From NCBI GenBank assembly GCA_951812925.1, contig OX638371.1:117513124-117577123 (forward strand): 64,000 nt of DNA. The letters are read 5' to 3'. This stretch comes from Calliopum simillimum (lineage: Eukaryota > Arthropoda > Insecta > Diptera > Lauxaniidae). Under the pieces are notes generated by a model. It was not told where the DNA came from. It saw only the letters and a program-made list of their open reading frames with translations, and ran no database searches. Below, piece by piece: positions 5,097 through 43,059 of this stretch (positions are counted from its first letter, which is position 1; every line of letters begins with the position of its first letter). The translations under genes and the position numbers were made by a program.

Positions 5097-5210
5097 CTTA
5101 TTGAAAGTTAGTATATGAATATTAAATTTTTAATCATTTTTATAAGCTTTCAGACCCATAAACCCCAAATTACAATAGTGTATTTAGACTTTTTTTCCGT
5201 GAGCGTAGAC

Positions 5211-5218
5211 TATAAAAG
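5211..5218 (+). promoter_or_regulatory. TATA box upstream of the intact Fanzor
   Basis: TATAAAAG lies 167 bases before the Fanzor start codon. A start site about 30 bp downstream (around 5241) would give a leader of roughly 140 nt. This is sequence evidence only. The same TATAAAAG is found upstream of the second Fanzor copy at 8227. Confidence 0.5.
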
Positions 5219-5384
5219 CGGTTCATTTTTGTTGAAGTTAAACTTTGTAAACCAAAAAGTAACTCTACAATTTTATACTTGAGAATTTGAATTTAAGTTT
5301 TCCTTGATGTAGAAAAATATTTTTCATTCGTTTTAATAAATCAATCACAATAATTTTCATTTCATTGTCACACTTGGCACTGTG

Positions 5385-7191
5385 ATGCCGAAACGAAAGG
5401 AACCCTGCAACAATAACAACAAAGAGCAAGTGCAAAATTTTGTCATCAAGAAGGCACTCTATTCAACATGTAAAAATGTGGACGTATTCAATAAGATTCA
5501 ACGCGATGTTGCCGAAATGTCAGCGCTCTTTGTCGAAGTTTCAAGGTGAAATTGATTTTATTTTTGTGTTGTCGAAATGTTGTCGCAATGGCATTTATTG
5601 ATTTTACTGTACATACATTTGTAGGTACATTCATTTTACTTTGATGAAAAAATGGACTGTTGGTGACTTTTCTGAAATCAAATTTGCCGATTACTACTAT
5701 CATCTCATGCAAAAAAAGAAGCCCAAATACGTTGTAGACGCTACATATGCATCATTGAGGCAACATTTGCCACTCTACGACAGCTCATATAGATCGAATC
5801 TCTTCATAGATTCCGCTAACCAGTACAGTACACTATTTCACAACAACATATGGATGCACGCGTATTCAAGGCTGCGTAGATTTTTCAGCAAATTCACACA
5901 AGACCACTCAAAAATATACAATACTCTTCGTTATTTATTCAGCGAGGACAACGAGTTGGACCAAAAGTCACGAGATCCCGATTTGGATTTGCTGCTTCAC
6001 ATGACCGAGGAATTGCAATGGCGTGGCGAAAAATTTGCAAAGTTGCAAAATAAAAAAAATTACTGGGCTTCGATAAAAATATTTTTCAATCTCCAACGCT
6101 TCAACGAGCGCAACAATTACAAAAACTTTTCAATGATACCCATTTTCAAACACGGCGCACACCATATTCGCTATGATTCTTTTGCTTATTTCAATTTACT
6201 TTGTTCTTTAAAATTATTCAAGGGCGCATGGAAGGATTTCAACCGTGAGGAATATTGGTGTAAATACTTTAAACTACCGAAAAGCCAATTTGCTTTTTCA
6301 CTGCAGACCGATGGTGTATCAGTTTCATTCCTGATGCAAAAGCCCAATTCTAAAACAATGGTAAAGACAAAGTGTGTGTTAAAGAAAAAGAAGGAAAAAA
6401 ACAAAATGACAAGTTGCAAACAAACGGATTATTTTTCAGCGACAAAATTGGAGAAAATTAGATGCACCAAATATATAAACAAAATTGGTCTAGATCCGGG
6501 GCTTCGGTTGCTCTACGGTGGTGTGCGTAATGGGAAACCGATAAAATTGAAAAGTTCGACATATCATCACATGAGCGGGTTTTATTCACGTAAATACAAA
6601 CTTTCAAAAATTACTTCAAAATGTCCGCCAAATACAAAATTTTCTTCCAATTCAATCAACGATCTTGACGAATATATTCGGTACGAGTTGGAAATTTTTC
6701 AAGAGAAACAAAAAATTTTTAGTCAACGAAAAGTCACGCGATTAAAATTACAAAAGTTCATACAAGTTGAAAAAACCTGTCAGCGGTTAACAAATGAACT
6801 TGCGGGAGATGTAGCAGAACAAACTTTAATTTGCATTGGGTCTACGGAAATATCATCAAATTCACCAATTCGCGGTTACATACGAACACCACATCGTAAA
6901 TTCATACAAGCACTAAAAGAGCGAAGAAATGTCGATATCATATTCATCAATGAATTCAGGACAACAAAGTTGTGCGCAAATTGCAAATCACCCGAAAATA
7001 AAACATCTCAGTCCCCACACAGGTATCAATTTTGTCCAAATTGCAATACTTGTTGGAACCGAGATGTTAATGCCGGTGTAAATATATTGTACCTGGGCGA
7101 CTGCATAATTAGTGGGACACAAAAACACGAAAATTTCCAAAAATACAAAAGTAACACTATTGCTCCTACCGAGGAAAATGTGTCTACTTGA
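5385..7191 (+). CDS. Fanzor (eukaryotic TnpB-like RNA-guided endonuclease), apparently intact
   Basis: Spliced as join(5385..5545, 5625..7191), this gives 575 residues. The 79-bp intron has GT/AG ends and phase 2, and the broken second copy has its intron at the same place and phase. The N-terminal half is lysine- and aromatic-rich with no named domain visible. The C-terminal half has the split RuvC nuclease fold and zinc finger of TnpB/Fanzor proteins. RuvC-I is KIGLDPG (Asp about 344). The segment GSTEISSNSPIRGYIRTP (Glu about 462) is followed by INEFRTTKLC (Glu about 497, the position expected for the rearranged Fanzor catalytic Glu). The zinc ribbon is Cys 504/507 and 524/527, and RuvC-III is NRDVNAGVNI (Asp about 534). 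Fanzor proteins are known to cut DNA guided by an omega RNA encoded beside the gene. All catalytic and zinc residues are present with no stop codon. I found no transposase or flanking TIRs. Biochemical activity is inferred. Confidence 0.9.
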
Positions 7192-7224
7192 CCGTTTCTC
7201 TTTTTGATCAAAAGGAAAAATGGT

Positions 7225-7275
7225 TTAACTCTGCTCGGATTCAGATAACACAACTGTGTATGACGGGTCTGAAAG
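7225..7275 (+). ncRNA. Candidate omega-RNA scaffold hairpin 3' of Fanzor copy 1
   Basis: Just after the stop codon a stretch can fold into two stems: an outer TTCAGA (7240-7245) with TCTGAA (7268-7273), and an inner ACAC/GTGT hairpin, with a GGG before the closing strand. The same structure, with different loop bases, occurs 3' of the second Fanzor copy (10554-10587), together with the shared lead-in aatggtttaactctg. In known TnpB/Fanzor (OMEGA) loci the guide RNA scaffold is encoded at this position. Function is inferred; it could also be a 3' UTR element. Confidence 0.5.
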
Positions 7276-7285
7276 GGTTATAAGC

Positions 7286-8104
7286 TTATAAGCTTCTTTA
7301 ATTAAAAAACTTTTCAACTTTGTTCCGAAACTTTACCTTTTACTATTAATATCATGAAAGTAAACAAAACAGTAAGCTCAAGGAAATTTCTCCATAATAT
7401 AAGTTTTTTTAAAATAATCATCTGGAAAAAAAATATGTATATATAAAATGTGTGGAGCCTCCAATATAAAGATTCTTAAAAAAATTTTAAGTCTGAAACC
7501 TAGTGACTTAAAAAAAAAAATAATAAATATAACAAAATCTAAACGATTTATAAGAAAACAAATTTGCAATCGTAAACAGATTACTTTATAAGGTTATTCG
7601 AATTTATTTATTTTGGGTTAGCTCATTGACTATCTCGTATGCGACCGGTATCTAAGGTGCTTTCCTATTTCCAATATTATTCATTTATTTATTTAAAATT
7701 ACAATAAATGCCATGTATAAAAACAGCCCACAAATAACCAGTTGGATTCGTAGTAGTGGAACAGAGAAGGCTCACGAACCACCCAAGTGCTAAAAAAAAG
7801 CTATACAATGCAACCACTATCTCGACGAAAAGCGCTGGGCTTTTTGCCGGTAAGATTATGTATGAATTATGGAAATTTTTTTCTTAAATTTTTTAAAAAT
7901 TTATCTAAATCTTCAAAGGTAAAATTCAGTCTTAAGTTACTTTAATATTTGCTAGCATTTACGAAAATCCGGATGATCCACAAACATTTCAATAATTTTT
8001 GATGTAATTTTTTTATCTACTTAAAATATATTTCATTTCTTGTTCCTCATTCATCATATCATTTCATCCATTTCATAAAAAAACCGGGTAATATTTTAAT
8101 CACT
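7286..8104. other. Spacer between Fanzor copies; possible orphan first exon
   Basis: Mostly AT-rich, without an evident gene. At 7711 there is a tataaaaa box, followed by an ATG at about 7808 (MQPLSRRKALGFLP) and a good donor-like gtaaga near 7850. No following exon was recognised, so this is only a possible orphan first exon. Confidence 0.3.
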
Positions 8105-8537: not shown

Positions 8538-9613
8538 ATGGCGAAAAGACTAAGTGATTTTAACAATAGTAGTAAACAACATACAGAATTTGTAATAAAA
8601 AAGCTCTATTTTCAGCATGCAAGAAGGAAGAAATTTACCATAAAATTCAACAAGACGTTGACGAAATGTCGGCACTCTTTGTAGAAGTTTCTAGGTTATT
8701 ATAATATTTCTTTTAATATACAATTCAAGAGTTACAATGTCATTATTTTTCTACACACACACACACACAGATATATACATTTTGTTCTAATGAGAAAATG
8801 GAAAGCTGGAGATTTTGACGAAATAAAATTTGCCGATTATTATTATCATTTGATGGTAAAGAAAAAATCAAAGTACATTATCGACGAGGACTATGCTAAT
8901 ATTCTTTACAGGCTGACGGTATAGCTGTATCGTTTCTAATGCGAAAACCAATTGTAAAGTTAAACACTGCAAAGAATTCTGTAAAACGAAAAAGAACTTC
9001 AGCAATTCGTGGCGAAAACAAAGAAATTGAATACTATACAAATGTCATTTTGGAGAAAATATGCTCAACAGAATATGCCAACAAAATTGGTCTTGATCCG
9101 GGATTACGTTTGATATATGGTGGAGTTTGTAATGGAAAGCCAATTAAAATGAAAAATTCTACGTATCATCATATGAGCGGATTCTATTCGCGCAAATGTA
9201 AATTAAAAAGATTCACTTCAACAATGTGCCCAGAAAATACAAATTGAGGATGATTTTCAGTCAACGTAAAGTAACCAGATTAAAATTACAAAAATACATT
9301 TGTGTAGAGAAGACTTGTCATAAGCTGGCTAAAGAACTTGTTGGACCTGGTAATAATGGATCGACTCTAATTTGTATCGGTTCAAGTGAAATCTCATCAG
9401 GGTCACCAGTACGCGGCTATATACGGACACCACATCGGAAATTTGTACGGGCATTGCGAGAACATAAAAATGTCGACGTTATGTTAGTTAATGAATATAG
9501 AACCACTAAGCTATGTGTAAGTTGTTATTTTGAAAATAAAACATCACGATCACCACACAGGTATCAATTTTGTCCAAATTGCAATACTTGTTAAAATCGT
9601 GATGTTAATGGTG

Positions 9614-9616
<3 letters not shown>
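8538..9616 (+). pseudogene. Fanzor copy 2, broken
   Basis: Colinear with the intact copy. Exon 1 is 8538-8694, with the same phase-2 intron, and exon 2 starts at 8771 (YIHF then LM-KKW/RKW-type match). It is damaged in several ways. One A is missing in an A-run after about residue 20, shifting the frame. About 0.5 kb encoding the N-terminal middle region is deleted near 8910. A second deletion of about 70 bp near 9243 removes the segment before IFSQRKVTRLK. A stop codon (TAA) replaces the Trp codon just before NRDVNG at 9592. The RuvC-I GLDPG, the VNEYRTTKLC segment and the zinc cysteines are still readable. The 3' end is separated by a retrotransposon insertion and continues at 10398. Confidence 0.88.
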
Positions 9617-9649
<33 letters not shown>

Positions 9650-10397
9650 GTCTTATTAATTCATGTACAAAGTTATAAATAATTAAAAATAATTTAACTA
9701 ATATAAATAATTATTAAATGACTAGTTCAACCAAAAGGTCTAAGGAACTAAAAGAGACCGACAACTTAAAAGCTAGAAGTGATTTTTGAAATCATTAAAA
9801 TGGAACAATTCAAGGAAAAGAAAATATAACCCTTAACAATTCATTGACATAACTAGGAACTTAAGCGAAATTGAAAATTTACAAATTTATACAATTTTAC
9901 AGGTTAAGTAGAAAAATACAAAATTTACAATATAGCTAGCAGCGTAGTTCTATTTAAGAGGAATTCTTTTAACTTCTTTTTGAATAACTCCATATTCGAC
10001 AGGTTCTTGATCGAACTGTTCAACTCATTATACCACCTAAGTCCATTGTGCGATATACTCTGCGACGACATAGCATTTACTGCTCGAGAAATGACCAGAA
10101 CATTTCTATGCCTTGTATCATGCGAGTGTTGAAGCGTCAAAATCTGAACATTATTAGGACTTAGATTATTTTGGACTTTATGAACGTGCCATAACAACTG
10201 TAACCTATGAATGTATGAATGGCCTTAACAGGCAAAATACGATAATTGGAGTAAAGATCAACTGAATGATATCGAGAATGCAGATTGAAAACATTTTTTA
10301 ACATTTTATTTTGCATTACTTGAACACTATTAGAGTTCGAGAAAGCAGCCCAGATACCGGTGGCATAAGAGATATGGCAGTGAGCAATCCCAAAGTA
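9617..10397 (-). mobile_element. 5'-truncated non-LTR retrotransposon inserted in Fanzor copy 2
   Basis: On the minus strand, two overlapping frames (about 10370-10161 and 10197-9925) encode the C-terminal part of a LINE reverse transcriptase polyprotein, including SYATGIWAAF, VQVMQNKMLKNV and a final FKKKLKEFLL. A frameshift lies near 10190. The minus-strand 3' end abuts an (AT)n run at about 9616-9648, consistent with a simple-repeat tail. The palm domain is absent, so the copy is dead. It interrupts the Fanzor codons for NILYLG, which resume at about 10398 (aatatattgtacttgg). Confidence 0.75.
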
Positions 10398-10600
10398 AAT
10401 CAATATATTGTACTTGGGCCAATGTATTATTGCCGGTATCAAAAAAAATAAAAATTTTTGTAAAAGTACTACTATTTCTGGTATAGCGAAAAATGTATGT
10501 ACTGTATGACCGATTTTATTGTAATAAATAAAAAATGGTTTAACTCTGGAAAATTCAGATAACACAATCGTGTAGTCTGGGTCTGAAAGTTAATAGCTCT
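10398..10600 (+). pseudogene. 3' end of Fanzor copy 2 with conserved hairpin
   Basis: From aatatattgtacttggg the sequence again parallels the 3' end of the intact Fanzor: degenerate C-terminal codons, then the noncoding block aatggtttaactctgg...attcagataacacaa. The hairpin TTCAGA (10554-10559) / TCTGAA (10582-10587), with its inner ACAC/GTGT stem, is kept although the protein part is ruined. Similarity fades at about 10590, which may mark the original element or transcript end. Confidence 0.7.
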
Positions 10601-21460: not shown

Positions 21461-23206
21461 TTATATTATTATTTTTTCCCCACTATAACGGCACGAAATT
21501 TTCTTCCTCTTTTTCCAATTGAATTGTTTAGTGTCTGTTTTGCTTGCGAAACTCGATTCTTCCAGCTTAGTTGCGATGAGATGAAAATTATTCATGTATT
21601 CCTTTAACGTTTTGTTTCGTGGTTGGTTTATGATTCCAAAGTCATGCTCTGTGAAAGATGTGGCTTTATTCAGTAATATGCCAGTTTTTCTGCGTGTTTC
21701 CTTATGGAAGTAAGTTTTTCGTGAATAATACTTCCTTTCGATAGGAACGGTACTTTTAATCCTTGGCTGATTTGATTTATGGTCTCTTATTTCAAGTTTG
21801 CGGAACTCGTGGAGACCATAACGCGAAGTGTATTCGACATCTTCAGTTTGTGTGGCGGGAATGCAACGGCAACTTTCGTCGTGATGCTCTTTTTGCCGCT
21901 GTATTGTAGCATTGTATGATTCTGCTACAGTAATTAATGATTTAACTGGAAGTCCTACTTTTGTAGTGCTTTCAGCCTCGAGAGACCTGATGAAGTAACG
22001 ATCCTCTTTGTTTATTGCGCTTGGCATTCTATCAGCTTTACCCAGTAGGAGAGGTGGCTCCGTTTCATATTGAACATTTTCATTAAATTGCACTCGAGGA
22101 ATTGGAACTTCACCATCATGCTGATTCGTCCGGCCTTCCTGAAAAACAGTAGGATCCTCGCTAGTTGAGTTTTCCGTGATCACAGTGTGTACCCACTGTT
22201 CGTCCGCCAGATGTTCATTGCCTTGCCGAGAATACTCTGTGAATGCTTCTGGCCAAACTTGCGTAATTTGGCTAGGATGTCCGCATCTCAACGTATTCGC
22301 TTCCATTCGGATAAATTCGTACTCCTTAGTGAGCATTATCAATTCGTCCAAAGTTCTGAATCCATTTCTGCTTATGTATAAGCGATATTCAGCGCGCAAT
22401 CCGTCGTATATCCTATCCGTGAAATCTTGAGAGTACAAATGTGGATGCTGAAAGATTAGGTTTTGAACAGCTAAAATATAATCCTGTCCACTTTCACGGG
22501 GACCTTGCCGGCGGCTATGGATGTCTTCCTCTAAATGTGTGAAGTACCTCGCTGACATAAAGAAACTGATTGCTTCCATGCGGAACTGTTTCCAAGTGGA
22601 TATCGTATGGTTCTTGATCCTCCACCAATCATAAGCTTTTCTTTTAAGCAGCACAACCATGGGTACCAACATTTTGTCCATCGGAATCTCGTAGTATTTC
22701 GCCATTTCCTCTAATTCGTATATATAATCCAGAACATTTTCTGATCCTTCATACCTTAGATTCCACTTTATTACGATATCCATTATGTCTGCATTACTTA
22801 AGCCTCTTTGGCCTTCGCAGATATGCACATCCTCTTTAGTGGCTTCCTCAGTTAGCTCTTTAACTAAATTTTCGGTCGACTGTCGGCCGCGACGATTTTT
22901 CAAGAAGGTGCTGAAACGTCGCCGAAGGGCATCCATATTTCCTTCCGTCTCGAGGCCTTGTTTCACCATTTCTTCCATCAGCCTTTCCTTTCGTAAGTTG
23001 TATATCCAGCCAAGTGAGGACGGGCTGCGCGATCGGTGGTTTACTCCATTTTCTGATTGTTGAGTTAAAATTCCATTTACTATTATTTGTGGGATAGCTG
23101 CAGATCCTGACGCTGTATCGCCATTGTCTGAGCTAAGTCCCTGCTCGGGCGCCATTTGTAACGATTGTTTTATTCCAGAGGCTGAAGTAGCGTCAGCGGT
23201 TGCCAT
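21461..23206 (-). CDS. Retrotransposon Gag protein
   Basis: One open frame, about 581 residues from the first ATG (23206); a second ATG at 23155 overlaps the primer site. A retrotransposon Gag capsid-like region spans about residues 130-300, with LDYIYELEEMAKYYEIP, KRKAYDWWRIKN, TWKQFRMEAISFF, ESGQDYILAVQNL and YDGLRAEYR, as in Ty3/Gypsy-type Gag. The C-terminal third is charged; no CCHC zinc knuckle is visible. The frame begins inside the LTR and is read through the primer-binding site, a layout also known from long-LTR fly elements such as Ulysses and Osvaldo (recalled, not checked). It ends 70 bp before the polypurine tract. No stop codon interrupts it, so Gag may be produced. Confidence 0.85.
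   Translation of the reverse strand: MATADATSASGIKQSLQMAPEQGLSSDNGDTASGSAAIPQIIVNGILTQQSENGVNHRSRSPSSLGWIYNLRKERLMEEMVKQGLETEGNMDALRRRFSTFLKNRRGRQSTENLVKELTEEATKEDVHICEGQRGLSNADIMDIVIKWNLRYEGSENVLDYIYELEEMAKYYEIPMDKMLVPMVVLLKRKAYDWWRIKNHTISTWKQFRMEAISFFMSARYFTHLEEDIHSRRQGPRESGQDYILAVQNLIFQHPHLYSQDFTDRIYDGLRAEYRLYISRNGFRTLDELIMLTKEYEFIRMEANTLRCGHPSQITQVWPEAFTEYSRQGNEHLADEQWVHTVITENSTSEDPTVFQEGRTNQHDGEVPIPRVQFNENVQYETEPPLLLGKADRMPSAINKEDRYFIRSLEAESTTKVGLPVKSLITVAESYNATIQRQKEHHDESCRCIPATQTEDVEYTSRYGLHEFRKLEIRDHKSNQPRIKSTVPIERKYYSRKTYFHKETRRKTGILLNKATSFTEHDFGIINQPRNKTLKEYMNNFHLIATKLEESSFASKTDTKQFNWKKRKKISCRYSGEKIII
23137..23154 (-). other. Primer-binding site, tRNA-Lys type
   Basis: On the minus strand, tggcgcccgagcagggac starts two bases after the LTR end (ACA-AA). 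It is one base different from the well-known 18-nt tRNA-Lys primer site tggcgcccgaacagggac, which supports tRNA-Lys as primer. Confidence 0.85.
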
Positions 23207-25689
23207 GGTCAACTAAAAGACAATCAAACTTTTAGTGGTAAAATGATCGTTTATTGAATCTCTCTCAGAAATCGTCTTAAATATTATAGTTTTACAATTC
23301 AATTTTCTTAATACAATTCAATAATCTTAGCTTACAATAGTATTAAAATAATAATTACAATTTAAGTTCTTGGAAGGAATATAATACAAAGTGTCTCAAT
23401 CTTAGAATGGTTGTTTTGTAACTGCGGCTCCTTTTTAATTCGTGAGGGTCCCGCAGGATCAGCGGTTTGCTACCACGTGTCTCCCTTTGACTCTAATTCT
23501 CCGTAGGAATGAATCCGGGTGAAGTGTTATATGGAACACCTCCAATATCGAAGTCACACCTAAATGAGCACTATATGGAGTACTCGGTGCGGTCCACTAC
23601 GACCTCTTGGCCACTTAAGGTGTCCAAAGGAAGATCGGGGCGAAATGCTATATGGAACACTGGGTGAATACTATATGGAGTATTCAGTGTGGTCCACTAC
23701 GACCTTTTGGCCACTTAAGGTGTCCAAAGGAAGATCGGGGCGAAATGCTATATGAAGCACTTCAAATATCGAACTCACACTGGAGTGAATACTATATGGA
23801 GTATTCAGTGTGGTCCACTACGACCTTTTGGCCACTTAAGGTGTCCAAAGGAAGATCGGGGCGAAATGCTATATGGAGCACTTCAAATATCGAACTCACA
23901 CTGGAGTGAATACTATATGGAGTATTCAGTGTGGTCCACTACGACCTTTTGGCCACTTAAGGTGTCCAAAGGAAGATCGGGGCGAAATGCTATATGGGGC
24001 ACTTCAAATATCGAACTCACACTGGAGTGAATACTATATGGAGTATTCAGTGTGGTCCACTACGACCTGTTGGCCACTTAAGGTGTCCAAAGGAAGATCG
24101 GGGCGAAATGCTATATGGAGCACTTCAAATATCGAACTCGCACTGGAGTGAATACTATATGGAGTATTCAGTGTGGTCCACTACGACCTTTTGGCCACTT
24201 AAGGTGTCCAAAGGAAGATCGGGGCGAAATGCTATATGGAGCACTTCAAATATCGAACTCACACTGGAGTGAATACTATATGGAGTATTCAGTGTGGTCC
24301 ACTACGACCTTTTGGCCACTTAAGGTGTCCAAAGGAAGATCGGGGCGAAATGCTATATGGAGCACTTCAAATATCGAACTCACACTGGAGTGAATACTAT
24401 ATGGAGTATTCAGTGTGGTCCACTACGACCTTTTGGCCAATTAAGGTGTCCAAAGGAAGATCGGGGCGAAATGCTATATGGAGCACTTCAAATATCGAAC
24501 TCACACTGGAGTGAATACTATATGGAGTATTCAGTGTGGTCCACTACGACCTTTTGGCCACTTAAGGTGTCCAAAGGAAGATCGGGGCGAAATGCTATAT
24601 GGAGCACTTCAAATATCGAACTCACACTGGAGTGAATACTATATGGAGTATTCAGTGTGGTCCACTACGACCTTTTGGCCACTTAAGGTGTCCAAAGGAA
24701 GATCGGGGCGAAATGCTATATGGAGCACTTCAAATATCGAACTCACACTGGAGTGAATACTATATGGAGTATTCAGTGTGGTCCACTACGACCTTTTGGC
24801 CACTTAAGGTGTCCAAAGGAAGATCGGGGCGAAATGCTATATGGAGCACTTCAAATATCGAACTCACACTGGAGTGAATACTATATGGAGTATTCAGTGT
24901 GGTCCACTACGACCTTTTGGCCACTTAAGGTGTCCAAAGGAAGATCGGGGCGAAATGCTATATGGAGCACTTCAAATATCGAACTCACACTGGAGTGAAT
25001 ACTATATGGAGTATTCAGTGTGGTCCACTACGACCTTTTGGCCACTTAAGGTGTCCAAAGGAAGATCGGGGCGAAATGCTATATGGAGCACTTCAAATAT
25101 CGAACTCACACTGGAGTGAATACTATATGGAGTATTCAGTGTGGTCCACTACGACCTTTTGGCCACTTAAGGTGTCCAAAGGAAGATCGGGGCGAAATGC
25201 TATATGGAGCACTTCAAATATCGAACTCACACTGGAGTGAATACTATATGGAGTATTCAGTGTGGTCCACTACGACCCAATGATCACTTAAGGTGTTCGA
25301 GGGAAGTTCGGGTGAAACACTATAGAAGTATTTCTAATACCTTACAAATACGAGGCCTCTGCACTTTCCTTTAAGCTTTCGATGGTTAATAATCAATATT
25401 AATAAATTAACACTGATGTTCACTCGACGAACGCTAGGCTGTGACTGCCTGTCGATTGCTCGACTGCTGCTGCTTTTATCGTCGCGGGTTCACGTATGTA
25501 TGTGTGTATGTGTGTTTGTACTGTATATTTTGTTGTTGGCTCTTTGAACATATGTTTGACGGCGTTAAAATTGTTTTGGTTTGTTTGTTTTAGTTTTAAA
25601 TTTGGATTCCCGTTAGAATTGGTTCCCTTTACAATTTTTTAAAGTTTTGTTACAAATAGAAAAGTTGTGACGTCACTTGGGACGTTACA
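23157..25689 (-). repeat. 5' LTR with 121-bp tandem array
   Basis: Same length and unit number as the other LTR (array about 23569-25282). The differences noted are one substitution inside the array (24440, A instead of C) and C at 25357 where the partner has T. The partner itself has a private T at 20002. Equal array length in both LTRs fits copying of one template during reverse transcription. Confidence 0.93.
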
Positions 25690-41774: not shown

Positions 41775-43059
41775 TTGGGTGTACAACTTAAAAACCGGAA
41801 TTTGACGGTGGATGTCCGTACTAACAAACATCGTGAAAGCTCGAACTTTATATATATGTCATTTTGAAGGTACATTTGACAGCTGTCAAAATCAGTCAAC
41901 AAAACAATTTTATCTTGTGTGCATCATTATTATTTTTCACGATGAATAACTTCGAAAATTGGAGAAAAAGACAGCATTTGCGGGAGGTTCTGTTGGGTCA
42001 TTTTTTTGCAAAGAAAACTGCTGCGGAAAGTCATAGTTTGCTTGTAGAAGTTTATGGGGACTATGCTCCAGCTGAATCAAGCTGTCGTGAGTGGTTTCGA
42101 CGGTTTAAAAGTGGTGATTTTGATGTCGAAGGCAAAGAACGTCCTGGTCAGCCGAAAAAGTTTGAGGATGAAGAATTGGAGGCATTACTCGATCAAGATT
42201 CATGTCAAACGCAAGAAGAACTTGCAGAACCATTGGAAGGATCGAGCAACAATTTCCAGACGTTTGAAAGCCTTGGGAATTTTTCAAAAGATGGGAAATT
42301 GGGTGCCATACGAGTTGAAGCCAAGGGACGTCGAACGCCGATTTTTGATGTCCACAATGCTGCTTGAACGCCACAAAAGGAAGGGTTTTTTGCATCGTTT
42401 TGTCACTGGCGATGAGAAGTGGATCCATTACGATAATTCCAAGCGCAAAACAGCGTATGTCAAGAAAGGTGAGGCCGGCCCATCACAGCCGAAGCCAAAT
42501 ATTCACGCTTCGAAGGTAATGCTCTGTATTTGGTGGGACCAGCTAGGTGTGATCCATTATGAGCTGTTGCCAGGTGGCCAAACCATTAATGCTCAACTCT
42601 ATCGTCAACAATTAGTCCGATTGAAGCAGAAAATCTAGGCAGAGCGGCCAACGTATGCGACCAGACACGAGTCAATCATTTTCCACCACGATAACGCTCG
42701 GCCACATATTGCTGCCCCAGTCAAAAATTATCTGGAAAACAACGGATGGGAAATTTTGCCTCACCCGCTTTATAGCCCAGACCTTGCACCATCTGGCTAC
42801 CATTTGTTTCGATCGATGCAGAATGCCCTATCAGGAATACGGTTCACTTAAGTTCAAGATATCGAAAATTGGCTCGATTCATTTTTGGCCGCCAAGCCGG
42901 CGCAATTTTTTTGGGATGGAATTCAAAAATTGCCTGAAAGATGGGGAAATGTTGTAGCTTCCAATGGACAATATTTTGAATAAAATATATTGTAACATTT
43001 TTCCACAATAAAGCATCAAATTTCGCTAAAAAATTCCGGTTTTTAAGTTGTACACCCAA
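41775..43059 (+). mobile_element. Mariner transposon, inactivated
   Basis: Perfect 29-bp TIRs starting ttgggtgtacaacttaaaaa flank 1285 bp, with TA on both sides, the mariner target duplication. The transposase frame starts at 41942 (MNNFENWRKRQHLREVLLGHFFAKKTAAESH). It shifts frame near 42235 and meets a stop at about 42636. Catalytic landmarks of the D,D34D family are seen: TGDEKW, HHDNARPHIA, and YSPDLAPSGYHLF, in which the third catalytic Asp (usual PSDYH) is Gly. It is dead on three counts, but the TIRs could still be mobilised in trans. Confidence 0.92.

Follow-up and report, generated by a model that had tools for sequence, protein, structure and literature searches.

The window, by which we mean the whole stretch of 64,000 nucleotides of Calliopum simillimum DNA analysed here, contains an intact two-exon Fanzor1 gene on its forward strand, where the parts of its element and a second Fanzor copy described below also lie. 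Exon 1 (5385..5545) and exon 2 (5625..7191, stop included) are separated by a GT-AG intron of 79 nt (5546..5624), and splicing of 5385-5545 to 5625-7191 gives a protein of 575 residues with a single, terminal stop. In the spliced translation, the RuvC-I motif GLDPG begins at residue 342 (catalytic D344), INEFRTTKLC at residue 495 (catalytic E497), and NRDVNAG at residue 532 (catalytic D534), and the CX2C pairs of a zinc ribbon are found at residues 504 and 524. In an alignment of 22 sequences, the first D and the E did not vary, and the last D and the four cysteines hardly did. The intact 575-residue frame with RuvC triad and zinc ribbon, which a first-pass annotation had proposed from the letters of the DNA, was thus confirmed by the spliced translation. 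The TATA box that it had placed upstream of the gene is present as a motif at 5211..5217. The intron, also proposed there, is backed by protein relatives that read straight through the exon 1/exon 2 junction, by another, decayed copy in the window, whose own GT-AG intron (8695-8770) occupies the equivalent site, and by its retention among other copies of the gene (see below).

The first-pass annotation had further suggested a TnpB/Fanzor profile search and a structure prediction, and both came out in favour of the assignment. Exon 2 matched the Pfam Cas12f1-like TNB domain (2.4e-10), and among solved structures the top match of the protein was SpuFz1, with a score of 2e-6 for the single sequence and 8.7e-21 for the 22-sequence profile. 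When exon 2 was modelled with AlphaFold2 (pLDDT 77, pTM 0.63) and the model compared with the PDB by Foldseek, ranks 1-7 were all Fanzors (SpuFz, PpFz, and GtFz). The 24 protein relatives included one from Rhagoletis zephyria (52% identity) and two from Contarinia nasturtii (27-28%), the other 21 being 32-58% identical. Sequence comparison and modelling support the Fanzor1 identity and the intactness of the gene at this locus, the product of which is a predicted RNA-guided nuclease. The Fanzor of the window is an ordinary protein; it is the manner of its spread that is unusual.

Comparison with other copies placed the gene within a Fanzor1 mobile element of subfamily A (5147..7277, 2131 bp), the left end of which is two bases short. 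The left terminal inverted repeat of the window copy is CTTTCAGACCC (5147..5157), full-length copies having CCCTTTCAGACCC, and the right one is GGGTCTGAAAGGG (7265..7277). The element is flanked by a 10-bp target-site duplication, TTATAAGCTT, at 5140..5149, where its last 3 bases overlap the element start, and at 7278..7287. Exact 13-bp repeats, CCCTTTCAGACCC and GGGTCTGAAAGGG, were found in seven full-length copies (L002, L049, L053, L058, L065, L040/L017, and L045/L028), and damaged ones in L008 and L046/L020. The earlier statement that no terminal inverted repeat was found beside the gene is therefore not confirmed, given these seven copies and the left repeat of the window copy that lacks just two bases. 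The statement that no transposase accompanies the gene was borne out within the element, where the open reading frame list contains no second frame of 120 aa or more from stop to stop, meaning that the element encodes no transposase itself. Part of the 5' untranslated region (5230-5383) matched at least nine further places in the genome at 83-87% identity, some of them in nearby pairs; eight of these matches cover element positions 82/83-205 and one covers 109-236, a shared segment.

The window holds other repeats as well. A second, decayed Fanzor copy (8538..10589), of subfamily B, has its intron position and 3' end as in the intact copy. It is broken near 9619 by another insertion that carries an antisense open reading frame (10161-10589) resembling by eye the tail of a LINE reverse transcriptase, with no match in Pfam. 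A broken Mos1-like mariner, split into an HTH and a DDE part that lie in overlapping frames, is located at 41837-42638, and an open frame of 583 aa that includes a retrotransposon gag domain at 21461-23212 on the reverse strand.

The first-pass annotation had also pointed to a conserved, structured 3' segment as an RNA candidate, and folding and copy comparison agree with it. The 100 nt ending in TTAT, the first bases of the right duplication, have a predicted folding energy of -30.7 kcal/mol (z -4.2), better than 200 of 200 shuffled sequences, and the last ~50 nt of the segment are nearly invariant among three copies from subfamilies A and B. In the predicted fold, the target TTA closes a stem with the element. 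A similar arrangement is known from insect-virus Fanzor1 elements, in whose reRNAs the target site is built into the scaffold (Yoon et al. 2023, PMC10711439; this and the other papers cited are drawn on in excerpt). By analogy with the SfAV Fanzor1 reRNA, and from fold and conservation, we predict a guide-RNA (reRNA/omega RNA) scaffold at 7190..7281 that ends with the target TTAT, the remainder of the right duplication being the presumed start of the guide. Rfam at gathering thresholds gave no hits in the window, a result still compatible with a Fanzor RNA, and a tRNA scan gave none. According to the excerpts of Saito et al. (2023, PMC10432273), the adjacent motif of GtFz1 is TTAAN, and a CA motif is kept upstream of the left repeat in SpuFz1-related loci. 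A T-rich/TTAN adjacent motif is therefore the natural prediction for the fly Fanzor, and the flank that follows TTAN would serve as the guide.

To judge the gene as a resident rather than an obviously mobile one, as had been suggested, its copies in the genome have to be considered. A search of the 690-Mb genome with exon 2, in which 83 of 279 candidates were scored, gave at least 85 matches. At least 33 were near-full-length copies with 98-100% amino acid identity on C1-C5, at least 13 of them with the top score and at least 31 without a stop inside exon 2; at least 23 near-full-length copies had 68-70% and at least seven had 50-53% identity, the remaining matches being partial. We compared 37 loci over 1618 bp (36 distinct ones, since L055 repeats L001): 28 were gap-free along the full or nearly full length with 0-9 substitutions, seven loci being identical to the window copy across the full stretch, and the other nine were gapped or partial. 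An intact open reading frame with an intron is what a resident host gene would have, but the near-identical copies on C1-C5 refute a single-copy gene, and most of the copies that could be read carry a target-site duplication of their own, so that we attach practically no probability to residence. The family is a young, recently active transposable element of the TTAN/13-bp-inverted-repeat kind. In L018 and L064, a short 3' portion of the element is left (433 and 415 bp aligned); the right end is preserved together with the adjoining flank, and most of the gene is missing, which brings to mind the 'ghost' loci described for Spizellomyces.

The right end is fixed among the copies read. A 122-base query made up of the 3' end of the window copy plus TTAT had at least 40 matches in the genome (40 of 96 candidates scored), all of which continued past the last base of the element; 39 belonged to subfamily A and one (79%) was of the subfamily B type. 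The 39 distinct subfamily-A right flanks, which were chosen by the end motif and do not include L066 of subfamily B, begin at the identical element base with TTA in 38 cases and ATA in one, followed at base 4 by T (26), A (10), G (2), or C (1). Beyond base 4, the pairwise identity of the flanks was 0.30-0.36, equal to background; there was thus no sign that new targets are chosen by the guide of the donor. None of the 39 right flanks starts with poly(A). An exon-2 fragment at C3:36782588, which contains residues 1-295 only, and two left-end matches (C3:104782920 and C3:104781161), none of which has a counterpart among the right-end matches listed, argue against a perfect right-end rule.

The left ends vary. 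Among the matches listed for a query of the first 236 bases, the element started at positions 1-3, 20, 26, 36, 41, 49, 61, 78, 85, 88, 90, 92, 100, and 115. Both ends were read in 31 copies (27 copies, three from paired loci, and L016), and 21 of these have target-site duplications, typically of 10-16 bp, that enclose a truncated, extended, or chimeric 5' end. An exact repeat of the right flank of at least 10 bp within 70 bp of the 5' end was present in 15 of 27 copies (L055 and L066 of subfamily B having been dropped) and in one of 702 mismatched pairs. In a looser test with ~1.2 kb of left flank, the duplications of the window copy, L005, L006, and L061 were not above the best mismatched pairing, and the null maximum of 16 for L001 stems from its duplicate locus L055. 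The duplications of 20 copies measured 10-16 bp except for one of 48 bp; the latter, a flank repeat of L004 with 3 mismatches, may not be a simple duplication. In L001, L002, L007, L047, and L016, ~87 to 980 bp of other sequence separate the duplication from the element downstream of it. The preference for T-rich targets is moderate, T preceding the duplication at position -1 in 16, at -2 in 13, and at -3 in 14 of 20 copies.

Seven of the 31 copies (L008, L049, L053, L058, L017/L040, L020/L046, and L028/L045) fit ordinary two-ended insertions with 4-bp duplications. Four of these seven matches are TTAT on both sides, as is partly expected by chance, and three are TTAA/TTAA or ATAT/ATAT; the terminal repeats are damaged in L008 and L020/L046. 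L002 has TTAT on both sides, but also a longer, farther duplication. Three copies (L051, L054, and L065) fall into neither class, with far duplication candidates in L054 and L065. The inverted repeats and matching 4 bp of the seven copies would suit an ordinary cut-and-paste element, the copies of which were later shortened by deletion and spread by segmental duplication. Later deletion would not, however, make the long duplications that abut or enclose the altered 5' ends of 21 copies, and copies with a common left flank change their right flank exactly at the element end, which leaves this explanation with very little probability.

The change of right flank is seen most clearly in L016 (C4:116.06 Mb), which carries the left flank and the left duplication of L059 (C4:115.92 Mb) and has a different right flank. 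The common left flank extends for 788 bp at 99% identity and then ends; upstream of it in L016 there are ~180-190 bp of filler and then TTATGAAATGCAATA, with which the right flank of L016 also opens, a 15-bp duplication of its own. We take L059 to be the donor of L016 because the duplication in L059 matches the right flank of L059 itself. Since L059 has neither a left inverted repeat nor a TATA box, the left repeat would be dispensable. The left flank of L005 recurs in L009 over 168 bp (98%) and in L011 over at least 1,021 bp (100%), with differing right flanks; the L005/L011 pair, sitting amid local relatives of the flank, could have arisen by local inverted duplication. The 263 bp that break up the element in L056 are also carried by L007, and the filler of L047, by eye a piece of a zinc-finger gene, recurs to the left of L009. 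L004, L005, and L011 (C5:108.05-108.14 Mb) as well as L047 and L009 adjoin zinc-finger-like genes by eye and have local flank relatives.

Target-primed reverse transcription classically leaves a fixed 3' end together with 5' truncation and duplications of 10-16 bp, and the presence of this pattern in the family counts against DNA-templated copying. The RNA-templated explanation holds that a LINE- or Penelope-like reverse transcriptase, acting in trans, primes at a T-rich/TTAN nick on an unspliced Fanzor RNA whose 3' terminus is the structured segment. The scattered 5' ends and the filler are likewise typical of such insertion, and the 3' end coincides with a stable predicted RNA structure. Compared with LINE/SINE-type elements, the fixed 3' end, the 5' truncation, and the variable duplications are present, whereas intron loss and a poly(A) or simple-repeat tail are absent: the intron was kept in 28 of 28 distinct copies that could be checked (27 of 79 nt and one of 68 nt; both exon edges exactly matched, and four duplicate loci removed by hand), and no right end has poly(A). 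Furthermore, seven copies with duplications (the window copy, L057, L048, L052, L005, L062, and L006) begin within 5147-5196, in front of the TATA box (5211), which excludes a TATA-driven mRNA as the template of those seven. The retained intron, the lack of poly(A), and the 5' ends above the TATA box together favour DNA over a spliced mRNA as the template; an unspliced read-through RNA could carry the intron and the upstream flank. The 788 bp of L059 flank found in L016 and the copies that fit two-ended insertions with inverted repeats also speak against an RNA template, and we consider this explanation unlikely.

A one-ended, rolling-circle transposition of the Helentron/Helitron2 type, as proposed for the Fanzor1 elements CRe-1/2/3 of Chlamydomonas, has a shared anatomy in its favour. 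The excerpts of Bao and Jurka (2013, PMC3627910) describe these algal elements as having intact 3' and truncated 5' ends, captured 5' sequence, and duplications of 7-19 bp, occasionally much longer, directly after TTTT, which they ascribe to one-ended Helitron2 transposition. In addition, the sources available in excerpt identify DINE-1, which is very abundant in Drosophila, as a Helentron and report that such elements prefer T-rich targets. The same sources report Helentrons and their relatives to leave the target site unchanged and to have subterminal repeats, while 21 of 31 copies here have duplications; nor do the TTAA/TTAA or ATAT/ATAT duplications of three of the seven two-ended candidates fit. 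A rolling-circle origin therefore appears improbable to us.

The explanation that we favour, and regard as probable, is a right-end-anchored, DNA-templated copying combined with Fanzor cutting of empty alleles. A putative enzyme encoded outside the element would attach the GGG of the right end to a T-rich/TTAN target. Host DNA synthesis would then proceed leftward with the donor as template and either halt or change template, be it within the element, at the left end of the element, or in the donor flank; the loose end would be joined afterward, often with microhomology. Fanzor itself is unlikely to be the cutter of new sites, since the right fragment keeps TTAN and known Fanzors cut inside the target, ~9-21 bases in according to the excerpts of PMC10432273. 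With the right end encoding the predicted guide RNA and the new flank serving as guide, every insertion would reprogram Fanzor against the matching empty allele (predicted motif T-rich plus TTAN), favouring spread or retention, and Fanzor probably cuts such alleles. The element itself would be spared, just ~6-12 guide-matching bases being left at the left junction and the upstream T's being replaced by GGG at the right one.

A broader possibility, which we put forward tentatively and hold to be doubtful, is that a one-ended 'copy-in' recurring across unrelated elements is the work of Fanzor or of its complex with the right-end guide RNA, where the guide-RNA end would suffice and donor flank could be copied along. 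It would embrace the fly family, the algal Helitron2-like CRe elements, and possibly the fungal MCi-2. Whether the CRe insertion mode is due to the Fanzor protein is a point that Bao and Jurka (2013, PMC3627910, excerpts) did not decide; a second kind of element behaving alike makes the protein as cause more likely, short of proof.

Of the known systems, SpuFz1 of Spizellomyces (8gkh and relatives) is the best match to the fly protein among solved ones, with 16-17% identity in the structural alignment. It resembles the fly element in its right-end guide RNA, which is predicted in the fly, and in conserved bases upstream of the left repeat, and differs in its adjacent motif, CATA (PMC10432273, excerpts), and its TA duplications (PMC3627910, excerpts). 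Several Fanzor1 families (13) have been described from another dipteran genome, that of the Hessian fly Mayetiola destructor (PMC3627910, excerpts), a species distant from the present host fly, whose PolD2 is most similar to that of Teleopsis dalmanni and further higher flies, with 65% at most. In structure, the fly family is most readily compared with the insect-virus Fanzor1 elements of ascoviruses, granuloviruses, and a nucleopolyhedrovirus, for which the excerpts of Bao and Jurka (2013, PMC3627910) report 13-bp repeats and TTAN duplications: in both, a Fanzor1 gene without a transposase lies between terminal inverted repeats of 13 bp, and the targets are TTAN. The SfAV reRNA, too, is produced from the right end, with the repeat and the target site within the scaffold (PMC10711439, excerpts), as predicted for the fly version. 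On the other hand, the fly family has many chromosomal copies, an intron, and mostly one-ended insertions with 10-16-bp duplications, a mode of insertion absent from what the excerpts say of the viral elements, which are compared here by that description. TTAN is found on the right side in 38 of 39 cases, and the same 4 bp stand on both sides in seven of 31 copies, four of these being TTAT/TTAT, as is partly expected by chance; most copies have the longer duplications. When viral contigs were searched with the alignment of relatives, at least 59 loci were found, mostly short C-terminal matches with 22-45% identity, and no insect-virus element was identified among them.

In behaviour, the closest counterparts are CRe-1/2/3, which share with the fly family the intact 3' and truncated 5' ends, the captured 5' sequence, and intron-bearing genes (5 and 10 exons in CRe; PMC3627910, excerpts). 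They differ in that their ends are common with Helitron2 and that, according to the excerpts, insertions stopping at the consensus 5' end come without duplications. Terminal inverted repeats and TTAN targets, in contrast, characterize the fly family. A literature search that covered subscription papers thinly found no report of such Fanzor insertion anatomy in an animal; similar anatomy has been known from the algal elements since 2013 (PMC3627910, excerpts). The natural role of the Fanzor nuclease is described as an open question in the excerpts of Saito et al. (PMC10432273). The fly family, which is young, comprises dozens of near-identical copies with an intact gene among them, and allows donors and daughters to be traced in part, offers an animal test system for this role, in which the insertion sites alone predict the guides and a T-rich/TTAN adjacent motif. 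The insertion mode anchored at the right end that was described in an alga appears here in an animal, on an element of another type. In the fly family, it is the structure of the insect-virus elements that is combined with the behaviour of the algal CRe elements.
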